This document shows positions 38,891 through 51,433 of a stretch of DNA of 64,000 nucleotides, one piece after another; position 1 is the first letter of the stretch; the number at the start of each line of letters is the position of its first letter. This DNA is from Jonesiaceae bacterium BS-20 (GTDB lineage: Bacteria > Actinomycetota > Actinomycetes > Actinomycetales > Cellulomonadaceae): NCBI GenBank assembly GCA_039995105.1, contig CP146203.1, positions 2,852,001 through 2,916,000 of the forward strand, written 5' to 3'. The notes under the pieces are model-generated. The model searched no databases. It had not been told where the DNA came from and saw only the letters and a program-made list of their open reading frames with translations. Position numbers and translations under genes: made by a program.

Positions 38891-39233
38891 GTTTTGGGCC
38901 CCTCAAGATTCGGTGACTTTGAAGATTTCCTGACGGCAGTCACGGTGTTAGCCGCCGTCTTCAGACTAGTGACCGGTGCCCGCATCGCAACGCGATTCCC
39001 AATACGTGAACAGACAAACCGCCCAAAACGCTACAGTTGTGTTCGCACTCACAGCTTTTTGTGTGTTTTTAACAGTCGTTAACATGCAATTTTGAGACGG
39101 ACCGCAGGATCTAGCGGATCCGGTTAACCGCTTTGAGTCCGCATTTGGTCCTAACCTCCAAATATCCCTGCTTCCGATGCCTCACCCGGAGCCGCTCGCG
39201 TCTTGCGCGCCGTAAAACAAATAATTGGGTCGA
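38891..39233. other. Divergent intergenic region, no gene seen
   Basis: This gap of about 340 bases separates the binding-lipoprotein gene (minus strand) from hrpA (plus strand). I see no convincing ORF or RNA gene. It holds T-rich promoter-like tracts near 39055-39075 and a GTTAAC-type repeat around 39069-39084. Confidence 0.5.
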
Positions 39234-42200
39234 ATGGCTTGCGGCTGGGACAATGGCACGGTGAGCAGTAAATCTTCTTCTTCATCCCAGCCCAATAGCA
39301 CCTCTGATGGCGCAGCTACCAGCCAGCGCCGCAACCATCGCAGTACCCAAAAGCGCCGCGGCAACCAAAACCGCCGCGGGAAGAAGCGAGAGAACTCCGG
39401 CTCGCAGGTGGCTCACGTCAACTTGGCCCGCCTTGCTAGGGCAGCCGAGCGCCGCGCAAACGTGCAGGTCCCGGTCATTACGTTCCCCGAGGAACTACCG
39501 GTCAGCGCCCGGCGCCAAGATATTGCCGCCGCGATCGCCGCTAACCAGGTGGTTATTGTTGCCGGTGAAACCGGATCCGGTAAGACCACGCAGCTCCCCA
39601 AAATCTTGCTCGAGCTGGGCCGCGGCCGCAAGGGCCAAATTGGGCACACCCAGCCGCGCCGTATTGCCGCGCGCACGGTGGCCGAGCGTATTGCTCAGGA
39701 GATTGGGACCGAGCTGGGCCAGATCGTTGGTTATCAGGTCAGGTTTACGGACCAGTCGGGCGAGAATACCTTGGTCAAGGTCATGACCGACGGTATCTTG
39801 CTAGCCCAGATTCAACGCGACCCGCAGTTGCTGGCCTATGACACCCTCATTATCGATGAGGCACACGAGCGGTCGCTCAACATTGACTTCCTGTTGGGGT
39901 ACCTGACCCGTCTGTTGCCCCAGCGCCCCGACCTCAAGGTCATCATTACCTCGGCAACGATTGACTCGAACCGGTTTGCACGCCACTTTGCCCCGGGTGG
40001 CCCGGTCGCAGTTGATGATTCCGGTGAGGTTCCAAAGGCCGCCGAGCTGGCTCCGGTTATTGAAGTCTCCGGACGTACCTATCCCGTTGAGATTCGGTAC
40101 CGGCCGCTGTCCCAAAACGAGTTGGGGGCTAGCCCTGACGATCAGTATGACGAGGACGGGCACCGGGTAGGCACCAACCCCAAGGCAGCTAAGAACGCCA
40201 AGAATGCGGGCAAGCGCCTGCAAGGTCAGCGACCCGGCGGCGACAAGCCCGGCACGGGAACCAACGCCGGGCCGTCCCGCAAACCCAAAGATGACACCGA
40301 TATGCTCACGGCTATCTGCCAGTCGGTTGATGAACTCATGGTTGAGGGTCCCGGGGATATTTTGGTGTTCCTGTCCGGGGAACGCGACATTCATGACACC
40401 GAAGACGCCCTGCGCAGCCACCTTGGCAGCCGCGCCAATGACACCAGGGCTCCGGGTTACACCGAAATCTTGCCGCTGTACGCACGGCTCTCCGCGGCCG
40501 AGCAGCACCGGGTATTCCAGACACAGAGTCACCGCCGCATTGTCTTGGCCACCAACGTTGCCGAGACCTCACTGACGGTTCCGGGGATCCGGTACGTCAT
40601 TGACCCGGGAACCGCCCGTATTTCGCGGTTCTCCAAGGCCACCAAGGTGCAGCGCCTACCCATTGAGCCCATCTCCCAGGCGAGCGCTAATCAGCGCGCG
40701 GGGCGTTGTGGCCGTGTAGCCGATGGTATTGCGATCCGGTTGTTCTCCGAGGAGGACTTTGAGCAGCGCCCCGCGTTCACCGAACCGGAGATTCTGCGTA
40801 CCTCGCTCGCCTCGGTCCTGTTGCAGATGATCTCCGTTGGCGTGGTGAAATCACCCGATGACGTTGCCAAGTTCCCGTTTGTCGAGCCACCAGACACGCG
40901 TGCTATTCGCGATGGTGTTGCTCTGTTGTCCGAGTTGGGGGCTCTCAAGGTCACCAAGGATGGCACCGCACTCACCCAGGTGGGCCGCCAGTTGGCCCAG
41001 CTCCCGATGGACCCTCGCCTTGCCCGCATGATCATTGAAGGATCCAAGCGCGGGGTAACCCGCGAGGTCATGATCATTGCCGCCGTGCTGTCTATTCAAG
41101 ACCCGCGCGAGCGCCCCAGTGAGGTGCGCGAGCTGGCCGATGCCCAGCACGCCCGGTTCACCGACGGCCACTCAGACTTTATGACGTACCTGAACCTGTG
41201 GCAGTACGTGCGCTCCCAGCAAAAATCGATGGGTTCAAGTGCGTTTAGGCGCATGTGCCGGGCCGAGTACCTGAACTTCATGCGGATCCGCGAGTGGCAG
41301 GACGTGGTGACCCAACTGCGCGACATGGCCAAGTCGATGGACCTCGAGGTCAAGGAAATCTCCGCCCAGCCAATCCGGGAAAAGATTGCCGAGGTTGAGG
41401 GCAAGAAGCTATCAAAGGTCAACCGCGAGGAACTCTCTCGCCTTGAGCCTGACACCCGCTTTGTTTGGGATTCCGAGACCATTCACCGCTCGTTGCTCTC
41501 CGGTTTGCTGTCCCAAATTGGTATGCAGGAAGCGACCGAGGTTAAGGCAAACCGCGGCAAGGAAACCGCCGCTGACCGCCGTTCCAAGCGCATGGCCCGC
41601 AACGATTACCTTGGGGCACGCGGCGCCAAGTTTGCCATCTTCCCCGGTTCCGGGTTGGCCAAGAAGCCGCCGGCTTGGGTCATGGCCGGCGAGCTCGTTG
41701 AGACCTCGCGCCTGTGGGCACGCGACGTTGCCCTGATTGACCCGGCCTGGGCGGAGGAGTTGGCCGGCCCCATCGCCAAGTACAACTACTCCGATCAGTA
41801 CTGGTCCACCCGTCACGGCGCCGCCATGGCCAAGGAGAAAGTCTTGGTTTACGGCGTGCCCATCGTGGCCGACCGTCCGGTGCTGTACTCCAAGGTTGAC
41901 CCCGAGGCCGCGCGCGAGATGTTTATTCGCAACGCCTTGGTTCAGGGTGAGTGGACCACCCACCACAAGTTTGCGGCGCATAACCAAGCCATCGTTGCAG
42001 AGGCACAAGAGCTCGAGGCCAGGTCTCGCCAGCGCGGCCTCATGGTCGACGATGAAGCCCTATTCGGGTTCTTTGACGCACGGTTACCGGACACGATTGT
42101 CTCAGCCAGGCACTTTGACCGGTGGTGGAAGGATGCTCGCCAAGAGACTCCGGACCTGCTGAATTACACCATTGACCTGCTCATTCCAACGGGCCCGCAG

Positions 42201-43817
42201 GCGGTTTCCGAGGATGAGTTCCCGCAAACCTGGCAGCAGGGCGACCTCACCTTGCCGCTCACCTACCAGTTCTCCCCCGGCGCGGACGCGGACGGCGTCA
42301 CCGTGCACATTCCCCTTGCGGTGCTGAACCGCGTGGTTCCGGACGGCTTTGACTGGATGGTTCCGGGCCTCCTTGAGGAGTTGTGCGTGGGCGCCATCCG
42401 CGCGTTGCCCAAGGCAATGCGCCGCCAGTTGGTCCCGGCCCCGGATGTGGGCCGCGACATTGCTAATTGGTTGCTTGAGCACTGCCCCGCTTGGGCTGAT
42501 ATGACCCGTGCCGGTGACATGGCTGAGTCCTTTGAGCACGCGTTTGGCCGCGCAATTATGGCGCTGCGGGACGTAGAAATGCTTGACGATGCCTGGGCTG
42601 CGGATAAGCTGCCGCCTCACCTCAGGATGACCTTTAGGGTCTTTGAGACCCACGGTACCGGTAAGCGTGAGATCACCGATGTGCTTGGCGAATCCAAGGA
42701 CCTTGCGGTCTTGCAGCGCCAACTGGCCAACAAGAACCAAGACGCGGTGCGATCCGCTGTCAAGGGTGCGGTGGGCCAGGCCCTCGCGGAAGCTCAGGCC
42801 GCAGCCAAGTCTGCTGGCAAGCAAAAACCCGGAACAGCCACACCGCAAGGGGGCGCTGGTAGTGGGGCAGGCATCGGCAATCCTCTGGCCAGCACGGCCG
42901 CCGGGTTTACCCACGCCATCAATGAACAGTCCGACCTCAAAACCTGGCCCGCCGGGCCCGGGTATGAGGTCTTGCCCGAGGTCATTGAGGGAACCGGCCC
43001 GGCCGGCGTAGTCGTGCGCGGCTACCCCACCCTCATTGTTGAAAAGGGCGGACAGGTAGCTTTGCGGATCTTGGCCCAGCAATCACGCCAGGAGCCTGAG
43101 CAAGCCAAGGCAGTGATTCGCTTGGTTACGGGCGAGGTTGCGCTAGCCAGCGCCCGGGTAAGCTCACGCTGGTCTGGGAATCAGGCCCTGACGCTGGCCG
43201 CGAGTCCGTATAAGAACACCGCCGCGCTCGTTGCGGACCTGCAGTTAGCCGCGGTGCAAGCCCTCGTGCCTGGCGCGGGTAAGGTCCGTACCGCAGCCGA
43301 CTACCAAGATGTTGTCGCCCATTGCCGCACCCGGATTGAAGACGAGGTCCACCGGATTGTCGGCGACGTCGTTGCCGCACTCACCGCGTATAGGGACCTC
43401 GACGTGGCCGTGCAGAACGCCAACTCCATGGCGCTGCTGTCTACGTTGGCGGATATCCGCAAGATCATGACCTCTTTGGTCTACCCCGGGTTCATCAGCG
43501 CGACCCCACCCGAGCAACTGCGCCACCTACCCAGGTATTTGCGAGCCCAACTGCACCGCCTCGAAAAGGCTGCCAGTAACGTCCACCGCGACAACGAGCT
43601 GGCGTGGAAGATCTCCAACGTGGTTGAGCAATATGACCGCGCCGTCCAAGCCGCCAAGGCCACCCCGGAACAAGGTCTCAACCCAGACCTCGTGGCCGTG
43701 CGCTGGATGATCGAGGAACTGCGGGTGTCCCTCTATGCCGTGCAACTCGGCACCAACGGCACCGTCAGCGAGAAGCGGATCCTCAAGGCGATCACGGAGG
43801 CCACTAATCGCTCATGA
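39234..43817 (+). CDS. hrpA: ATP-dependent RNA helicase HrpA (DEAH/RHA family)
   Basis: About 1527 residues, longer than the roughly 1300 of E. coli HrpA. The start is unclear: ATG 39234 or GTG 39261. A Ser/Arg/Lys-rich N-terminal tail (1-65) precedes the helicase core: GETGSGKTTQLPK (motif I), TQPRRIAARTVAERIA (Ia), LIIDEAHERSLNIDFLLGYL (II, DEAH), TSATIDSNRFARHF (III), TNVAETSLTVPGI (V) and QRAGRCGRV (VI). WH, ratchet and OB-fold-NTP-binding domains and the DUF3418 C-terminal domain (about 900-1520) follow. Two low-complexity basic or Gly/Ala linkers interrupt it near 300-350 and 1185-1220. A role in RNA processing or ribosome rescue is family knowledge. Confidence 0.95.
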   Translation: MACGWDNGTVSSKSSSSSQPNSTSDGAATSQRRNHRSTQKRRGNQNRRGKKRENSGSQVAHVNLARLARAAERRANVQVPVITFPEELPVSARRQDIAAAIAANQVVIVAGETGSGKTTQLPKILLELGRGRKGQIGHTQPRRIAARTVAERIAQEIGTELGQIVGYQVRFTDQSGENTLVKVMTDGILLAQIQRDPQLLAYDTLIIDEAHERSLNIDFLLGYLTRLLPQRPDLKVIITSATIDSNRFARHFAPGGPVAVDDSGEVPKAAELAPVIEVSGRTYPVEIRYRPLSQNELGASPDDQYDEDGHRVGTNPKAAKNAKNAGKRLQGQRPGGDKPGTGTNAGPSRKPKDDTDMLTAICQSVDELMVEGPGDILVFLSGERDIHDTEDALRSHLGSRANDTRAPGYTEILPLYARLSAAEQHRVFQTQSHRRIVLATNVAETSLTVPGIRYVIDPGTARISRFSKATKVQRLPIEPISQASANQRAGRCGRVADGIAIRLFSEEDFEQRPAFTEPEILRTSLASVLLQMISVGVVKSPDDVAKFPFVEPPDTRAIRDGVALLSELGALKVTKDGTALTQVGRQLAQLPMDPRLARMIIEGSKRGVTREVMIIAAVLSIQDPRERPSEVRELADAQHARFTDGHSDFMTYLNLWQYVRSQQKSMGSSAFRRMCRAEYLNFMRIREWQDVVTQLRDMAKSMDLEVKEISAQPIREKIAEVEGKKLSKVNREELSRLEPDTRFVWDSETIHRSLLSGLLSQIGMQEATEVKANRGKETAADRRSKRMARNDYLGARGAKFAIFPGSGLAKKPPAWVMAGELVETSRLWARDVALIDPAWAEELAGPIAKYNYSDQYWSTRHGAAMAKEKVLVYGVPIVADRPVLYSKVDPEAAREMFIRNALVQGEWTTHHKFAAHNQAIVAEAQELEARSRQRGLMVDDEALFGFFDARLPDTIVSARHFDRWWKDARQETPDLLNYTIDLLIPTGPQAVSEDEFPQTWQQGDLTLPLTYQFSPGADADGVTVHIPLAVLNRVVPDGFDWMVPGLLEELCVGAIRALPKAMRRQLVPAPDVGRDIANWLLEHCPAWADMTRAGDMAESFEHAFGRAIMALRDVEMLDDAWAADKLPPHLRMTFRVFETHGTGKREITDVLGESKDLAVLQRQLANKNQDAVRSAVKGAVGQALAEAQAAAKSAGKQKPGTATPQGGAGSGAGIGNPLASTAAGFTHAINEQSDLKTWPAGPGYEVLPEVIEGTGPAGVVVRGYPTLIVEKGGQVALRILAQQSRQEPEQAKAVIRLVTGEVALASARVSSRWSGNQALTLAASPYKNTAALVADLQLAAVQALVPGAGKVRTAADYQDVVAHCRTRIEDEVHRIVGDVVAALTAYRDLDVAVQNANSMALLSTLADIRKIMTSLVYPGFISATPPEQLRHLPRYLRAQLHRLEKAASNVHRDNELAWKISNVVEQYDRAVQAAKATPEQGLNPDLVAVRWMIEELRVSLYAVQLGTNGTVSEKRILKAITEATNRS

Positions 43818-44012
43818 TGAGATGAGGAAGCCGCTAATTTCGCCCGTGGGGTTCAAGGAAACATAGACATTCTCAGCCACAAGCTGGGCGGCCCCAAAAC
43901 TGAATTCATCAGTCCGAATTTGACCAGTTTGGGGATCGAAAAAGGCTGCCCGACTTGACCACGATGTTAGAGCCCGACACTCCCAAGTTGTACTTCCCCT
44001 TCCCGGGTCCAT
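43812..44012 (-). CDS. Short uncharacterised ORF downstream of the Rhs/immunity region
   Basis: A 66-codon ORF overlapping the end of hrpA by six bases. Its C-terminal half (FFDPQTGQIRTDEFSFGAAQ, ENVYVSLNPTGEISGFLIS) reads like a beta-strand-rich protein and the ORF lies in the AT-richer accessory stretch, but I see no ribosome-binding site and recognise no family. It could be the decayed 3' end of an older immunity or Rhs-tip cassette. The remaining gap to 44066 holds nothing I can identify. Confidence 0.25.
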   Translation of the reverse strand: MDPGRGSTTWECRALTSWSSRAAFFDPQTGQIRTDEFSFGAAQLVAENVYVSLNPTGEISGFLISS

Positions 44013-44066: not shown

Positions 44067-44582
44067 TCATTTTGTGCTGCTACTTCTGTGAGCCCCACCA
44101 GGGCCCCTACCAACGCGTTTTCGCTGTGGATGATCCTCTGGCAGACAGTCCAAGATTCCCTGCTTAATTCGTCCAACATGCTTTTGTCGACCAACCGACC
44201 CGGGCAACATTCTGACCCGCTTGTTATCTTGGATACTTACCACACGAACAAATCTGGGAGCCACGGTGATGAAAGTTCCACCGTCATACCGATCATCAAA
44301 TACACCTAGAATTTCGTCCGTTCGTATTCGAAAACTTGAAACAAAACCACGATATCGAAGTTCACCATTCCTTATCTCGAGTTTCAATCGGAGCGCTCCC
44401 AGAGTTAAGAACATCCCGTATACAAAGAGGCCGCAAACTTGAAGCCATTCCCCAACACTTTGTAAAGCATCCCAGCTTCCGACCAACTCAGATATCCAAA
44501 CGCAATGAACTAACAGACTGAAACCAATTGCAAAGTTTCGCATTGGTTTAACTGAAAATTGCTTCGCTATTGCTTGAGGCAT
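44067..44582 (-). CDS. Two-helix membrane protein with PH-like C-terminal domain (candidate Rhs immunity protein)
   Basis: A 171-residue protein. Two transmembrane helices (about 17-34 and 45-65: NFAIGFSLLVHCVWISELVG, VCGLFVYGMFLTLGALRL) are followed by a beta-rich cytoplasmic domain (LKLEIRNGELRYRGFVSSFR, GTFITVAPRFVRVVSI). That layout resembles small bacterial PH-domain membrane proteins. The tail is basic. It sits directly downstream of the Rhs protein and its mini-ORF, in an AT-richer stretch unlike hrpA. Membrane immunity proteins of this size are common beside polymorphic toxins, so an immunity role is a reasonable inference, not proven. Confidence 0.65.
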   Translation of the reverse strand: MPQAIAKQFSVKPMRNFAIGFSLLVHCVWISELVGSWDALQSVGEWLQVCGLFVYGMFLTLGALRLKLEIRNGELRYRGFVSSFRIRTDEILGVFDDRYDGGTFITVAPRFVRVVSIQDNKRVRMLPGSVGRQKHVGRIKQGILDCLPEDHPQRKRVGRGPGGAHRSSSTK

Positions 44583-44741
44583 CTTGGCTCCAAATTCGCT
44601 TTACCCATTTTGGCTGTTTTCACGCAGATAGTTGAAAACCATTGAAATTCTTGCCATTTAGACAGATCTCTATCCGGTTCACGGAAGCCTACGAGTGTGC
44701 GTGCAGTCTACGATCATTCGGTTCAGAGGGGTCACTAGCAT
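44567..44741 (-). pseudogene. Frameshifted mini-ORF between Rhs and the PH-like gene
   Basis: An ATG at 44739-44741 follows the Rhs stop directly and opens a 20-codon ORF (MLVTPLNRMIVDCTHTRRLP) ending at 44679. One frame over, a further stretch of about 46 codons is open (LVGFREPDRDLSKW, then QEFQWFSTICVKTAKMG). It stops at 44567, overlapping the start of the PH-like gene by 16 bases. This looks like one small gene of about 60 codons broken by a frameshift, or a programmed shift, but it is too short to be certain. Confidence 0.35.
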
Positions 44742-47700
44742 CTACCTCCTCCTCTTCGGGTTCGATATACGATAACCCACGGTTTGTTCTACAAGGTACT
44801 TACTTTGTCTCACTCCCAAGTCGTATCTCCTTAGCTGAGTCCGTGTCGCACCTCGGTAGAATGTGCTCTTGTTTGCTCTACCCGCTGCTCTTGACCAGCT
44901 ATTTCGCCCTAGCCCGCCTAGGACTTTGACTGCACCTCCGCCCGCGGCCGAATAAAGCATGGCCGCTACCGCACGATTGCCTTCCTTCTTTCGACCTTGG
45001 ATGTAATAAGAAACAGCCGTGACACCATTGCAAGCAGTACCCAGTTTTCCTGGTATAAAGCCGCAAGCGGCCAACGCTCCTTTTGCGTATTTATTGTCAG
45101 TTAAGAATCTAGCCCCTTTTTGAACAACTTTACGTGTAGCTTTATAAGCTTTCTTTGCCCATTTTGCTATCTTGAGGTTACCGTCGAGGTCGAACTCGTT
45201 GATGGGGTCTTGTGGGTAGGTGTAGGCGGTGGTGTTGCCACCTGGTACAGGGTCGACGGAAGTGAAGTGTCCGCTGATGTTGTTGTAGAGGCGTGCTCCC
45301 ATCAAGATCAGACCGGTGGTGTCTTGGGCTCGCTCTTTACCGCCGAGCCACCCATAGTTCAGTGCCCCTGTCGAACCTGCTTGGGTGATGCTGATGCCAT
45401 ATTCATCATATGTACCCACCGGTCCCATGGTTGGGGTTTGTGTGCTGTTAGTGATATCGATAGTGGTGGCGACGGACCCGAGCGGATCATTCAGCGTCAG
45501 CGTTTTGGTGGTATCGGTGATTTCAATGCCGAGTGAGCCGCCGATGTCTCCGCCGTACCAGGTCATTTTTTCTGGGTTAAAACCATCATTGATGGTGGCC
45601 CAGGTGGGGTTATCCGAACCGTCAGCGTAGTAGCGTTTGGTCGTACTGGTGCCACCGTTGCTGGTGGTGGTTGAGGTTGATCGGCGTCCTGCGGGGTCAA
45701 GGTCGTAGGTGGTGGTGACCCCGTTTTGGGTGATCGACCGCGCACTGTCGTCATCAAAGTAGGTGATGGTGAGGTCGCCTGCTGCTGTCCCTTGTGGGGT
45801 GTCGATGGCGGGGAGTTTGGTTTGCCGTCCCAGCGGGTCGTACTGGTAGATGCCGGAGCTGTTGGCGCCGGTTTGCATCCGGTCTGCTTGATCGTACGCC
45901 CAGGTCTTATTACTCGTGGTTGCAGGTTCGGTGTCTTCGCAGGTCTTGGTTGCTTCGCCAAGGCTCAGTCGGTGGCCACGTGTGGAGAACCCGTACGTTC
46001 TGGTCGCACACACCCCACCTGCGTTGTCGTTGACGGTGGTGAGCCGGTTTGCTTTGTCGAATTCGAATTGTTGGGTGCGGCTCAGGGAACCGAACCCGAT
46101 GATTTCACCGGTTTCTTCATCAATGACTGGCGCGCCGTTGGCTTGGGACTCAATAGCGGTGATGCGGTCTTGGACATCATTAGTCATCGACCAAGCCAAC
46201 ACTTCAACCGGGTCCCCGGTCGTAGGTTGGATGGTGTAGGACATGCTGGTGACCGCACCTGAGCGTGGTTCGCGCACAATATGCTGGGTGACCTTGCCGC
46301 CGGCTAGGGTTTGACTAGTCATGTCCCCAATGGAGTCGTACATGGCGGTGAAGGTGCCAACACCGGTGGTGTCTGTTTTGGTCAGGTGTCCGCGGCGTTC
46401 GTTGGCGTCCCCGTACGTGTTGGTGGTGGTTTTGCCTGCTGAATCTGTGAACGTAACGACCCGTGACAATGCGTCATACGTGGTGGTTGAGGTCTTGCCG
46501 TGGTTGTCGGTGTAGGTGGTTGCCCTGCCCCACCCATCTGCTTGGGTGGTGATCCGCCCAGTCTCAGTTCCAGCGCTGTTGCGCGAGATCGTGGTGGTGG
46601 CATCCCCTGTTGCTTGGTCATATACGGTTTCGGTACTGCCCATGGCAACAGACCCAGCAACGCCTTGCACCTGGGTAGCCACCTTGGTAGGTTGGCCTGC
46701 GTTATTGAACGTGGTCGTGGTGATCCGCTTAGCTGTCCCTAGGGTCTCGGTGACCAGTGCTGGGGCCATGAACATGGAATACGCGGTCATCGTTGATGGC
46801 ACCGTAGGAGTGCCTTCACCCGTGGTGGTCATACAGTTCATGCCCGCCCACTGTGGTTTATTGCCGCAAGCCGCAAAGACACCGGTTTGTGGACCCGCTG
46901 TGTAGAACCCTGCCAGTGAAGTACCAGCATCAGTCCCGTTAGAGCCGGGTTCAACCGATTTAACAACCCGTCCTTCACCGTCGAGGACGCTTTTGGTGAT
47001 GATGTTGTCAGCTGCGTTGTCTATGTGGTTGGTGACCAGCGTTGAGACCCCGTGCTTCCACCCGGATGTATTTCCCGTTGCTGCCGCACCGTCTACGGGG
47101 TCGTACCCCGTGGTTGATCGCGACAGCACGACGGGTGTGCTGGCATCATCACCGGCAGGTACTTGGGTCACAATAACTTCAGTTGGCAGCCGGTACGGCA
47201 ACTCGGTATCCGGGTTAATCCCGCCATTGGGTGCACCTTGGTCATAGTTGGTATGCGTGTGTAACCGCACCAGACCAGTATCGGTATTAACCGCTGGAGT
47301 CCACACGTCGGTGATGAGTGTGCCTTCCGGGTTGGTAGGGGTTTCCTCGTTGTACTTGGTGATCGTGGCATACGTGTCGATGTCCGTCTGTCCCAGTTCA
47401 CCGTTTGCGTTGACATCGCGCAGTTGTGCGGTGGCACGCTCGTCAAGGGACCTGATCTCGTTGCCCTTGGCATCGTAATCAGCGGCCGTGAACTGCCAGG
47501 TACCTGACCCAAAGTTTGCGGTGTTGACGACGCGTCCGTCGAGGTCTGTGTATTGCAGGTCTGCGTACCGCCAGTCATCTGCACTGGGCATAACAATCTG
47601 GTTCAGATCGCCTGTAGCAACGGACCTGTCAGCGCTGAACACGGCAGCACCATACACGGCTGGAGCAGACTGTCCGTACCTGGAAGCCATAGCTGCATCA

Positions 47701-50180
47701 ATGGTGGGCAGGTTGCCTTGGCCAGTCAGCGGGATGCCATAGGCAAACCGCGACTGCTGGACTTGACTGCCGCCACTTGGTGCGGTGCGTGAGACCGCAA
47801 GTAATGACTTTGGATCATGAACCGATTTACCCCACACCAGTGAGAATGGTTGCAATCCCGCAGGCTTGAGGGTTTCTAGTAGCGGTTGACCTGATGAAGA
47901 AACCCCTGGCCCATACGTGTAGTTCACACTGCGTGCGGATGCCGGGCCACTCGCGTCTGCGGTGTGAGGGTAGGTTACCTTGACCAGGCGGTGCGGGGCT
48001 GCCGGTTCATACCCATACTTGGCAATCTGGACACTGGCCATGCCTGCCCCACCCGGTTTGGCGGGGTCATAGGCAACATAGGAAACTGTATCCACACGTT
48101 GCTTACCACTGACACTGGTGTAGGTAATGTCCAGTGCCCGGCACCCTGGCGCTAACAACGGCGCACTAGCGGTACAGGTCACGCCATCGGGAGTGGGTGC
48201 TAGGATCCGTGCCACGGTCCCATTGGTGTTTCGGGTAAACGTGGTGGCTTTTGTGGATCCTGGTTCTTGGATCTTTGATGGAGCCCATGTGCTATTCGCG
48301 AATGCGAAGAACGTCTTGGTCCCGTCATCTTCCGTGAATACTAGGGTGACACGGTCGGTGAGGAGTTCAAGCGTTGCACCGTACTCAGCGGTGTCATCAT
48401 CAATTGGGTCGTACTTGCCTGCTTTGCGATCTCCCTTGATTCCAGAGGTGTGTTGGTAGACCAGTGGTTCACCCTCCGCGTCAACAAGGGCGATGACCCC
48501 GTCTTGGGCGGTGCTATCAAACACTTCCCACCCAGCAACACCGATATCGGTACCGTCAAAGTTGGCTTGCCACCCTGGCCCAAACACAGAGTCGTTATCA
48601 ACCCCAGACAGGCTCGAATAGGTCCGTGACATCGACAGGTCACCTGCATACCCCGGTACGCTAACATCTGTTTCTGAGTAGTTGTACTCACCGGTCCACA
48701 GTGCTACCTGGCCTGGACCAGCGTCAGCTGTTGGGTAGTTGTCACCAAACGCGTGCGGCACCCGGATCACAGTCGGTTTTTGCACAGCAGGGGCTGCGCT
48801 GTTCCACGAACACTTCGTGGTGGTTGCTCCACCGGTTGCCACGTATTTGACACAGACTTGCACTTCGATCGCCATGACCCGGCGCTCAAGGCCTTTACTG
48901 GTTGCAAACGGAGTTGCCGACCATGTCGCCGAATACGAACCATTAAACGCCTTAGCGCTACCAGCGACCTCCGTCCATGGAGCACCCGCACCGCCATTGA
49001 CGGAGTTATCTGAAGCCGTGGTCGTTCCAACTTCACGCACATACGTCGTAGCAGTAGCAGTGCCATCTTGAGCACTTGGTGGTCCAGACAACGTGGTGGT
49101 GAACCGGTCCGTAGATTTCAACCCACCAATCTGAGACGTCAGCGCGACACCACCGGCACCAAACGCAAACGTCTTTTCACCAGACGCCAACCCCGCACGG
49201 TCTACCGCTTTGACCTTGAGTGTGTGATACCCAGCCCCAGGGCTCCACGACACCGACGCCTTACCAGCCGATGCGTTGACGCGCTCAACCGCGCCCTTGT
49301 CCTTCTTGACCTCAAAGTAGCTCGTATCAGTAGCCGACTCCAACGCAAACGTCGTACCTGTAGCAGCAGTACCCAACCAACCACCATCAGTGTATTTATT
49401 CGACGTCACCTTCGGCAGCGTCGGGGCAACCAAGTCAACCGTGAACTTCCCAGCAGTTTCTCCTGGTATAGTTTCTGCCTTCGACGCGAGAGTCCCATCA
49501 GAACCACGCACCTTAAAGGTATACGTATGCCCGTTGACTAAAGTTGGCAGTCTATACGATGAAGTTCCACCGCTAGCGACGTAGTTCCCACTACCCCAGT
49601 TAGCAATGACAGCACCAGTGGTGTTATTTGTGACATGGAACTGAGCCCGCACGTTACCGCCATCAGGATCAGAGACCACTGCAGTGATTGTTGGGGTCGC
49701 ATTCCGCACAAACAACGTCCGGTTCGGAGCAGTTCCAAACCACTGATATTGCCCTGGTGTCAACAACACCGTTGTCGCCTTGTTCGGATACGAGTTATAG
49801 GTGACCGAAAGCGTTGGCTTATTCGACGTCGCATTACCCGAACGGAATTTCTTCCACCCAAAATTATCGGTTTCACTCGATGCTGCAAGACGAATGCCCC
49901 GGCTAGCTACCGTCCCATTGGCGTAGTCCTGCATCAACGTCGTCACGTTCGCGCTCGACCACCCAGCAGCACACGAACTGGAGTACCCCTTGGCGTCAGT
50001 GACGGTCACATAGTTCTTTACCAGACCGGGCTGATTTGACCACACAGTCGAGGCCGAGGTCGTTGCGGTTGAACCAACCACCCACGGCTTAGCTGTGCAC
50101 GACCACGAGTGGAACTGATACAACTTCAACGTTGCAGACGTAATCTTCTTCCCCAAAATCGGGGACACATTCACATTCAA
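44742..50180 (-). CDS. RHS-repeat polymorphic-toxin-like protein, main part (downstream of a frameshift)
   Basis: An 1812-codon frame that continues the preceding ORF after a one-base shift. In order it contains the rest of a DNRLRE domain (VNVSPILGKKITSATLKLYQ), fibronectin-like and beta-sandwich segments (to about 480), a DUF6531-like RHS entry (ALWTGEYNYSETDVSVPGYA, MSRTYSSLSG), and many YD/RHS repeats (for example YDALSRVVTFTDSAGKTTTN, FDKANRLTTVNDNAGG, YDPLGRQTKLP). The RHS-associated core ends YNNISGHFTSVDPVPGGNT and PINEFDLDG (residues 1659-1667). The last 145 residues are a unique, basic tip, which fits the position of the toxin domain. No repeat of this tip is seen elsewhere in the window. 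Confidence 0.88.
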   Translation of the reverse strand: MNVNVSPILGKKITSATLKLYQFHSWSCTAKPWVVGSTATTSASTVWSNQPGLVKNYVTVTDAKGYSSSCAAGWSSANVTTLMQDYANGTVASRGIRLAASSETDNFGWKKFRSGNATSNKPTLSVTYNSYPNKATTVLLTPGQYQWFGTAPNRTLFVRNATPTITAVVSDPDGGNVRAQFHVTNNTTGAVIANWGSGNYVASGGTSSYRLPTLVNGHTYTFKVRGSDGTLASKAETIPGETAGKFTVDLVAPTLPKVTSNKYTDGGWLGTAATGTTFALESATDTSYFEVKKDKGAVERVNASAGKASVSWSPGAGYHTLKVKAVDRAGLASGEKTFAFGAGGVALTSQIGGLKSTDRFTTTLSGPPSAQDGTATATTYVREVGTTTASDNSVNGGAGAPWTEVAGSAKAFNGSYSATWSATPFATSKGLERRVMAIEVQVCVKYVATGGATTTKCSWNSAAPAVQKPTVIRVPHAFGDNYPTADAGPGQVALWTGEYNYSETDVSVPGYAGDLSMSRTYSSLSGVDNDSVFGPGWQANFDGTDIGVAGWEVFDSTAQDGVIALVDAEGEPLVYQHTSGIKGDRKAGKYDPIDDDTAEYGATLELLTDRVTLVFTEDDGTKTFFAFANSTWAPSKIQEPGSTKATTFTRNTNGTVARILAPTPDGVTCTASAPLLAPGCRALDITYTSVSGKQRVDTVSYVAYDPAKPGGAGMASVQIAKYGYEPAAPHRLVKVTYPHTADASGPASARSVNYTYGPGVSSSGQPLLETLKPAGLQPFSLVWGKSVHDPKSLLAVSRTAPSGGSQVQQSRFAYGIPLTGQGNLPTIDAAMASRYGQSAPAVYGAAVFSADRSVATGDLNQIVMPSADDWRYADLQYTDLDGRVVNTANFGSGTWQFTAADYDAKGNEIRSLDERATAQLRDVNANGELGQTDIDTYATITKYNEETPTNPEGTLITDVWTPAVNTDTGLVRLHTHTNYDQGAPNGGINPDTELPYRLPTEVIVTQVPAGDDASTPVVLSRSTTGYDPVDGAAATGNTSGWKHGVSTLVTNHIDNAADNIITKSVLDGEGRVVKSVEPGSNGTDAGTSLAGFYTAGPQTGVFAACGNKPQWAGMNCMTTTGEGTPTVPSTMTAYSMFMAPALVTETLGTAKRITTTTFNNAGQPTKVATQVQGVAGSVAMGSTETVYDQATGDATTTISRNSAGTETGRITTQADGWGRATTYTDNHGKTSTTTYDALSRVVTFTDSAGKTTTNTYGDANERRGHLTKTDTTGVGTFTAMYDSIGDMTSQTLAGGKVTQHIVREPRSGAVTSMSYTIQPTTGDPVEVLAWSMTNDVQDRITAIESQANGAPVIDEETGEIIGFGSLSRTQQFEFDKANRLTTVNDNAGGVCATRTYGFSTRGHRLSLGEATKTCEDTEPATTSNKTWAYDQADRMQTGANSSGIYQYDPLGRQTKLPAIDTPQGTAAGDLTITYFDDDSARSITQNGVTTTYDLDPAGRRSTSTTTSNGGTSTTKRYYADGSDNPTWATINDGFNPEKMTWYGGDIGGSLGIEITDTTKTLTLNDPLGSVATTIDITNSTQTPTMGPVGTYDEYGISITQAGSTGALNYGWLGGKERAQDTTGLILMGARLYNNISGHFTSVDPVPGGNTTAYTYPQDPINEFDLDGNLKIAKWAKKAYKATRKVVQKGARFLTDNKYAKGALAACGFIPGKLGTACNGVTAVSYYIQGRKKEGNRAVAAMLYSAAGGGAVKVLGGLGRNSWSRAAGRANKSTFYRGATRTQLRRYDLGVRQSKYLVEQTVGYRISNPKRRR
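44745..44753 (-). promoter_or_regulatory. Strong Shine-Dalgarno encoded by the last three Rhs codons
   Basis: The final three Arg codons of the Rhs protein read AGGAGGAGG, immediately followed by TAG and then ATG. This near-ideal ribosome-binding site at the very end of the toxin gene would couple translation to whatever follows. Confidence 0.6.
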
Positions 50181-51352
50181 AACGAACGAGCCTTCGCACC
50201 CCCGCCGTTATACGTCCCAACCCGCAACTCACCATCGGTTGCCTTACTGCCGGTGATATCAGACTGCACGTACGTGTCATGGGTCAAACTCAACGAAATT
50301 GACGGGTCAATCACCAATGGAAACACCACATCATCACGGTCAAGCAACGCCTGTGTAGGTGCCACACTCACCTGGGTCTCATCCCCAGACGAATCCACAT
50401 CAACGACCAAAAGTTCTTCAACACCAACTCCACCATCTACCGGTGTTGAGGTATCTGCATCAGTCTCTACGAGGGTGTCCTCAGCCCATCGAGCAGGTAC
50501 ATCGGCACCCACCCATGGCTGGGTCACAGGATCAGCGCGCTGGGCATCTGCAACCGCATCCCACACCAACGGCGCCGTCACATTGGCAACGACCTCACTG
50601 TCTTCACCCACAAACACAATCGTGCCGTCAGCAGTTTCTTCAACCACAGTTTCAGGGACCGTCACCCCAAGCAAGAACGAAGCATCCTCAACAGTTTGAG
50701 GCTTTTCATGCACAACAAAGAACTGCTCAACACCAGTAGACGTCACCTCAACAACCATGTCCACACCATCACGAACACCCACAAATGTTGCCCGAGGGCC
50801 AGCAACCTCAGGAACCGGCAGATCCCCGGGATACGTCAACTCACTCACATCACCGGTAACCGGATCAGTCACCCTGGCAAATACCAACGGCGATGCTTCG
50901 CTCCCCACACCACCAGCAAGGATCGCAACCTTGTGCTCATGAGCCCGAGCTACAAACCAGTCCCCAGTACCCTTAATCAAGGTGGCATCAAACGGCGCCC
51001 AATCAGACTCCGCGGTCCCATCACCACCGGTCGGCACCCACACCGGTCCCGTCGCAAGCACCGTTTCCCACGTCCCATCAGGCAACGCAAACGTCGACGA
51101 CATCGACGTACGAGAAGAGAGCACCTCAACCTTCTCCCCCAACAACCGCGCATTCACCGACGCCGAAACAGCATCACCAGCTACCGGATTATCTGCCGCA
51201 ACAACGCTGCTTTGCGCATCCCCACTACTTGCATCCGACGGCTCCGCCTGCGCCGCTGGCACCACCCCGAACGCCAACAACAACGCACCCACAACAGAAC
51301 CAGCCACCGGAACAAACCAGTTCGGATAAACCAAAGCACCATTGCTTTTCAT
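50177..51352 (-). CDS. RHS-repeat protein, N-terminal secreted part (ends at a frameshift)
   Basis: A 391-codon frame from ATG 51352 (MKSNGALVYPNW). A signal peptide with a long hydrophobic core (VPVAGSVVGALLLAFGVVPA) is followed by AAQA-EPSD. An acidic Val/Asp/Thr-rich region comes next, then the first part of a DNRLRE domain (SLSLTHDTYVQSDITGSKAT, GELRVGTYNGGGAKARSF). The stop TGA at 50177-50179 interrupts that domain; in the next frame the domain continues without loss if one T is added to the TTTT run at 50179-50182. It is therefore the 5' half of one gene of about 2200 codons, broken by a frameshift or read through by slippage. Confidence 0.85.
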   Translation of the reverse strand: MKSNGALVYPNWFVPVAGSVVGALLLAFGVVPAAQAEPSDASSGDAQSSVVAADNPVAGDAVSASVNARLLGEKVEVLSSRTSMSSTFALPDGTWETVLATGPVWVPTGGDGTAESDWAPFDATLIKGTGDWFVARAHEHKVAILAGGVGSEASPLVFARVTDPVTGDVSELTYPGDLPVPEVAGPRATFVGVRDGVDMVVEVTSTGVEQFFVVHEKPQTVEDASFLLGVTVPETVVEETADGTIVFVGEDSEVVANVTAPLVWDAVADAQRADPVTQPWVGADVPARWAEDTLVETDADTSTPVDGGVGVEELLVVDVDSSGDETQVSVAPTQALLDRDDVVFPLVIDPSISLSLTHDTYVQSDITGSKATDGELRVGTYNGGGAKARSF

Positions 51353-51433
51353 AACAACCCCAAGCGGAAGATGAACGTAAATTAGCAAAACAATACGATC
51401 ACCAACAGCAGCCCTACAACACCAAAACACCAA

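Follow-up and report, generated by a model that had tools for sequence, protein, structure and literature searches.

The last 145 residues of an Rhs protein of Jonesiaceae bacterium BS-20 and the small gene downstream of it very probably represent a polymorphic Rhs toxin tip and its immunity gene, as judged from sequence comparison. Both are encoded on the reverse strand of contig CP146203.1 within a stretch of 64,000 nucleotides, the whole of which is called the window and whose own numbering is used throughout. The initial annotation of this DNA had put the two forward as a candidate toxin–immunity pair, and two results support that proposal: the tip is one member of a distinct family found in Cellulomonadaceae and relatives, in which no known domain is recognized, and it is coupled to a neighbour of the same architecture in nine of nine further loci that could be read. 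The features on which the argument turns are as follows.

44745..45179, minus strand: tip, the toxin candidate, 145 residues with its stop codon at 44742-44744; one of a family of 11 aligned tips
44916..45077, minus strand: moderately hydrophobic, glycine-rich segment, tip residues 35-88, that contains two invariant cysteines, C39 and C50
44583..44741, minus strand: gap between the stop of the tip and the start of the immunity candidate, 159 nt (range over the nine other loci, -14 to +33 nt)
44067..44582, minus strand: immunity candidate, 171 aa; its two hydrophobic helices span residues 17-35 and 46-64 and are followed by a PH-like domain and a helix at the C-terminus

The tip family and its distribution

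A profile search of the tip, which had been suggested as a check when the pair was first proposed, returned no family over the cut-off in Pfam or NCBIfam and no match in PADLOC, and thus no non-toxin domain. The best Pfam entry for the window tip, MccV (Microcin V, E 0.07-0.08), stayed below threshold and was taken as a chance match; its profile scored 14.1 bits against a cut-off of 27 in one of ten tips, and an identity with Microcin V was rejected. Likewise, two matches to PDB sequences (E 0.14 and 0.33) were attributed to chance. The tips nevertheless form one family. Thr27, Cys39, Gly44, Cys50, and Tyr58 are invariant in all 11 aligned tips, with no invariant residue in the C-terminal half, and hidden Markov models (HMMs) built with one tip left out at a time recovered all 11 with E 1.5e-19 or better, the window tip itself at E 1.5e-19. 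The tip had first been described as basic and unlike known domains. The second part of this description stands, and the window tip does carry a net charge of +28; however, basicity is not a property of the family, in which the net charge ranges from 0 to +28 (11 tips).

A first tip search across 99 related genomes gave matches in four, including the window's own and one false match. With a profile built from three tips, matches were obtained in 16 of 221 family genomes, including that of the window, and about half of these matches covered the hairpin-like part only or were false. Two tip matches were rejected individually: the one in G033 (L006/L015) lies outside any Rhs, and that in G055 (L034) sits in an unrelated protein. 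Full-length tips are present in G010, G032 (Cellulomonas sp. APG4), G230 (Oerskovia douganii), G238 (Promicromonospora iranensis), G242 (Promicromonospora sp. MEB111), G214, G256 (three tips), and G540 (Demequina sp.). The Rhs-associated core TIGR03696 exceeds its cut-off in eight of the ten relatives; the core of L013, which is cut by the end of its contig, reaches 32.4 of the required 32.5 bits, and L036 has no core match and resembles an orphan tip. In an even sample drawn at the order level, four of 396 genomes matched at E 1e-8 (the window, G540, G499, and G347), and in an even sample at the phylum level, one of 396 matched at E 1e-6 (the window); at most ten candidates were scored per genome in both samples, so that some tips may have been missed.

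Coupling of tip and neighbour, and module exchange

Downstream DNA is readable in nine further tip loci, and in all nine the tip is followed on the same strand by a gene for a protein of 149-181 residues, with hydrophobic segments near the N-terminus and a PH-like part after them. Seven of the nine neighbours have two segments over the hydropathy cut-off of 1.6, and those of L035 and L036 have one; the PH-like part was read from alignments in these nine, the fold having been predicted for the window protein only. By architecture, the neighbours are thus not unrelated genes, and the co-occurrence that the initial annotation proposed to check is found in every readable locus as the same transmembrane (TM) and PH-like architecture. 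Three loci lie outside this count. G256:C80:170-538 encodes a good tip whose downstream DNA ends at the contig edge. In G499, the tip is degenerate, with one stop, and has TM and PH-like genes on both sides. In G347, a tip-like stretch is in frame with a hydrophobic protein that by eye had looked like one of two TM segments and a PH-like part (2TM-PH); the immunity HMM does not match it, and the locus was excluded.

Thirty control Rhs loci, taken by best core score and not at random, gave no tip match and a single weak immunity match (E 0.0057); 28 of them have 1500 nt of downstream DNA, and the immunity HMM is too insensitive to catch every 2TM-PH gene. Similarly, none of seven loci sharing the hairpin-like stretch alone had an immunity match, and none of these seven hairpin-only tips contains the C39/C50 pair (by eye). 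The cysteine-bearing hairpin was only ever found beside TM and PH-like neighbours.

Exchange of tips on a conserved core was observed in both G256 and the window genome. Two G256 tips share their DNA (91-100% identity per 60 nt) across the core and as far as nucleotide 160 of the tip, beyond which they diverge, such that the first 53 residues are common and those afterwards are different. On the same contig, a further copy of the core diverges exactly at the start of the tip and continues into a different tip with a different neighbour. In the window genome, a second Rhs core is 74-97% identical per 100 nt to the window core up to 26 nt past the junction, where a different tip follows. At this second Rhs end (L016:8201-9852), the tip looks HNH-like (by eye) and the neighbour has 118 aa; the truncated core lies next to insertion-sequence-like genes (by eye). 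In G499 (L039:875-2290), the degenerate tip between its two TM and PH-like genes is followed by another Rhs core, forming an array of orphan modules.

The immunity proteins are more variable than the tips: identity to the window's own protein is 9-19% for the former and 22-34% for the latter. Between the two Promicromonospora loci, the ratio of nonsynonymous to synonymous substitutions (dN/dS) is 0.09 for the tip and 0.18 for the immunity gene, at a dS of ~1.9 that is near saturation. In a leave-one-out test, eight of 12 immunity proteins were recovered with E 5e-5 or better, and one G499 gene scored weakly (E 0.02). When the window protein was combined with two non-Rhs relatives, the resulting profile aligned with a profile of seven immunity proteins at a probability of 88.9 (E 2.4e-6), in register over the PH part, and the tip profile, which served as a negative control, gave a probability of 0.05. 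A group profile of the proteins of L023, L026, and L014 matched the seven weakly (probability 36) and the window group hardly at all (probability 3). Searched alone against the 99 relatives, the window protein found a paralogue in its own genome and weak matches in three other genomes. The paralogue, a 2TM-PH gene at L017:5692-6171, lies beside lipoprotein-like genes, with no adjoining Rhs in the stretch read.

Conversely, searches with the immunity HMM gave matches in 78 of the 221 family genomes at E 0.001, mostly weak ones and with the window genome included, and 17 of the 18 loci examined outside its seed lack a tip HMM match. The neighbour co-occurs with the tip in nine of nine readable loci, yet its 2TM-PH kind is common elsewhere, so that the tip predicts the neighbour and not the reverse. 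This wide occurrence away from tip loci, along with the lack of a recognizable toxin domain in the tip, would suit a non-toxic tip, namely a surface or adhesive Rhs tail beside a general-purpose membrane protein. We regard that explanation as very improbable in view of the tight coupling of tip and neighbour, the orphan tip and immunity modules in G256 and G499, the exchange at the core–tip junction, and a neighbour that varies more than the tip.

Two loci with genes of this kind stand out. L066, the one exception among the 18, has a 2TM-PH match that is preceded, at a distance of ~150 nt, by 24 residues resembling the tip (reverse strand, ~1274-1345; E 0.0014), perhaps a decayed tip. In G016 (L018:3800-7900), several TM and PH-like genes and other small genes are clustered near a hexosaminidase-like gene, an arrangement that by eye looks like an immunity-gene cluster.

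The neighbour protein and a proposed membrane target

The window immunity protein has a predicted PH fold. Its AlphaFold2 model (predicted local distance difference test score, pLDDT, of 68.3) consists of two long helices and a PH-type domain, and together with the hydrophobic segments it bears out the earlier description of a two-helix protein with a PH-like domain at 44067-44582. While the best Foldseek match of this model reached an E of only 0.01, the top rows listed by VIA-align were mostly PH, PTB, and FERM-F3 domains, with Z up to 9.1. At the sequence level, no credible match was found among PDB sequences (best E 0.82), Pfam returned DUF6585 alone for the window protein (E 0.13, below the cut-off), and bPH_6 (PF10756) matched one of nine immunity proteins (E 0.0079). 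The small gene was also correctly noted to sit in AT-richer DNA: the GC content is 56.5% for the Rhs core but 49.0% for the tip and 46.3% for the small gene, and 44067-45179, at 47.3%, is the minimum for that length in the 64 kb, followed by a trough near 13.2 kb at 48.0%. No sigma-70-like promoter or terminator was found in the gap at 44583..44741.

On balance, we favor a tip whose site of action is the target membrane, where the membrane-anchored neighbour blocks it. The strongest ground for this is the partner: in the 16 of 30 control Rhs loci that could be scored (11 had no open reading frame (ORF) in the neighbour window, and three tips ran off the locus), a TM neighbour accompanied six of six hydrophobic tips versus two of ten other tips (Fisher p 0.007). 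In addition, a C-terminal half with no invariant residue and a net charge anywhere from 0 to +28 argue against a conserved enzyme. Many control loci end in short glycine-rich hydrophobic tips, namely L080, L081, L087, L092, L093, L094, L098, L104, and L106.

According to this model, the YD-repeat shell would carry the tip out of the producer cell, and the tip, mostly helical, rich in glycine, and equipped with a two-cysteine hairpin, would enter the cytoplasmic membrane of the target. Once inserted, it could disturb the membrane by depolarization or by a small pore, with the more variable C-terminal half setting specificity. The 2TM-PH protein in the producer's own membrane would bind the incoming tip there, allowing the producer to survive.

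The same hairpin could instead serve as an entry (pre-toxin) domain, with the variable C-terminal half as the warhead inside the target and the membrane protein blocking uptake or catching the emerging tip. In other Rhs tips, hairpin-like stretches that lack the two cysteines do stand before HINT and HNH-like parts, the two G256 tips that share 53 residues and then differ would be consistent with such a division, and two-TM immunity proteins are suggested to prevent toxin uptake in the available part of Zhang et al. 2012 (PMC3482391). However, the cysteine-bearing hairpin occurs with TM and PH-like neighbours only, and the C-terminal half, besides its lack of invariant residues, is in both Promicromonospora tips neutral and to some extent hydrophobic. 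Taken together, an entry domain appears possible but rather unlikely.

A more specific version of the membrane-acting tip can be drawn, which we consider unlikely as a whole: a membrane-active Rhs warhead of Actinomycetota in which C39 and C50 form a disulfide outside the producer, and an EROS-like membrane PH-fold trap that binds the hairpin at or inside the bilayer. If true, this would constitute a new warhead class and a new kind of immunity protein.

The Rhs gene of the window and comparison with known systems

The tip is the end of an Rhs gene whose remaining parts are listed below.

45180..45410, minus strand: Rhs-associated core TIGR03696, ORF B residues 1591-1667 (NCBIfam E 1.8e-8, 34.8 bits against a cut-off of 32.5)
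44742..50180, minus strand: Rhs ORF B, 1812 aa, comprising the end of a DNRLRE domain, DUF6531, RHS repeats, the Rhs core, and the tip
50177..51433, minus strand: Rhs ORF A, 418 aa, which encodes the N-terminal portion of this Rhs protein in a frame different from that of ORF B

The motif PINEFDLDG (45180-45206, minus strand) forms the end of the core and directly precedes the 145 residues with which the 1812-aa frame closes; the frame coordinates and the TIGR03696 match agree with the initial annotation, which had placed the tip after this motif. RHS_repeat and DUF6531 both exceed their cut-offs in ORF B, and the start of ORF A resembles a signal peptide (judged by eye). The frame is broken at ~50177-50180, inside the DNRLRE domain, which splits the gene into the two ORFs. 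Thus, one continuous exported Rhs protein is not encoded in the window genome as assembled, whereas the frame is unbroken in the 2323-aa homologue L014 of G010 (Luteimicrobium xylanilyticum HY-24), to which ORF A aligns over residues 51-450 and ORF B over residues 451-2268, end to end. A mutation, or an error of sequencing or assembly, may underlie the break; a single assembly cannot decide between these, and in this strain the break may disarm the weapon. Beyond the immunity candidate, the 3′ end of a helicase-like gene (39225-43817, plus strand) is overlapped by a 66-aa ORF (43812-44012, minus strand) that has no Pfam or NCBIfam match.

There is close to an even chance that the locus in the window genome is a decaying relic, with a broken Rhs frame and an orphan immunity gene, an explanation that is compatible with a toxin–immunity pair at the level of the family. 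The frame break and the 159-nt gap would be in keeping with decay, as would the second, truncated Rhs end elsewhere in the genome. On the other hand, both the tip and the immunity gene keep an intact reading frame of full length, and the break may be a sequencing error.

Several observations weigh against a membrane-acting toxin tip with its immunity gene at this locus. The broken Rhs frame may prevent delivery of the tip in this strain, and the gap between tip and neighbour is unusually long compared with the other loci. In the leave-one-out test, the immunity proteins of the window (E 28) and of L014 (E 1.4) were missed, and that of L026 (E 0.0096) scored no better than the best shuffle. The search with the window protein alone found no Rhs-linked gene or tip locus in the 99 relatives. 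The window neighbour is therefore joined to the others by profile comparison, architecture, and predicted fold only, and its sequence tie to them is distant. Moreover, the predicted model of the window tip is all-helical with low confidence (pLDDT 54.6), and a Kyte–Doolittle hydropathy of 1.6 is reached by four of 11 tips, the window tip staying below it at 1.33. Finally, five of the 11 hydrophobic control tips had no ORF at all in the neighbour window.

Rhs toxin–immunity systems themselves are a known kind, and it is the tip family and the immunity architecture that were not found in print. A literature search, made mainly without subscription papers, returned no paper that combines Rhs, immunity protein, PH domain, and polymorphic toxin, which does not prove that none exists; among the matches listed on polymorphic toxins and immunity, none uses the term “bacterial PH domain”. 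In the available part of Zhang et al. 2012 (PMC3482391), “pleckstrin” and “PH domain” are absent, and “PH-like” appears once, for EsaC. Our analysis defines an unassigned Rhs tip family that is partnered with an immunity architecture of membrane hairpin and PH-type domain. It also suggests a rule for Gram-positive Rhs systems, by which a hydrophobic tip is followed by a membrane-spanning neighbour; with it, tips that lack an annotated domain could be assigned more easily to a membrane-acting or an enzymatic class.

Compared with the polymorphic Rhs/YD-repeat toxins, as far as they are covered in the available part of Zhang et al. 2012 (PMC3482391), the locus shares the Rhs core, the exchangeable tip, the small downstream gene, and the orphan modules, and differs from the catalogued members in that the window tip exceeds no cut-off in Pfam, NCBIfam, or PADLOC. 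By description, it also resembles the ionophore toxins of contact-dependent inhibition (CDI) and their two-helix CdiI proteins (PMC11630599, available part), which likewise have a helical, glycine-containing end, a TM-hairpin immunity protein, and an immunity protein more variable than the toxin. However, the carrier here is Rhs instead of CdiA, and the immunity proteins are of 149-181 aa with a PH-like part, whereas the CdiI hairpins have 72-100 aa. Similarly, the Rhs pore-forming toxin Tse5, as described in the available part of PMC10684867, combines an Rhs shell with a membrane-acting C-terminal fragment (~16 kDa in Tse5); unlike the window system, Tse5 is delivered by a Gram-negative type VI secretion system. 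The CDI ionophores and Tse5 are known examples of the mode of action proposed for the tip. As for the neighbour, the window immunity model has the PH-type fold in common with bacterial PH domains (bPH_6, PF10756). Human EROS (8kei_D), a protein of two TM segments and a PH domain, aligned with it over 139 residues (Z 8.7, root-mean-square deviation 3.2), including the helices as well as the PH part. EROS differs in being a eukaryotic NADPH oxidase chaperone with 9% identity to the window protein, and the common fold implies no common function.

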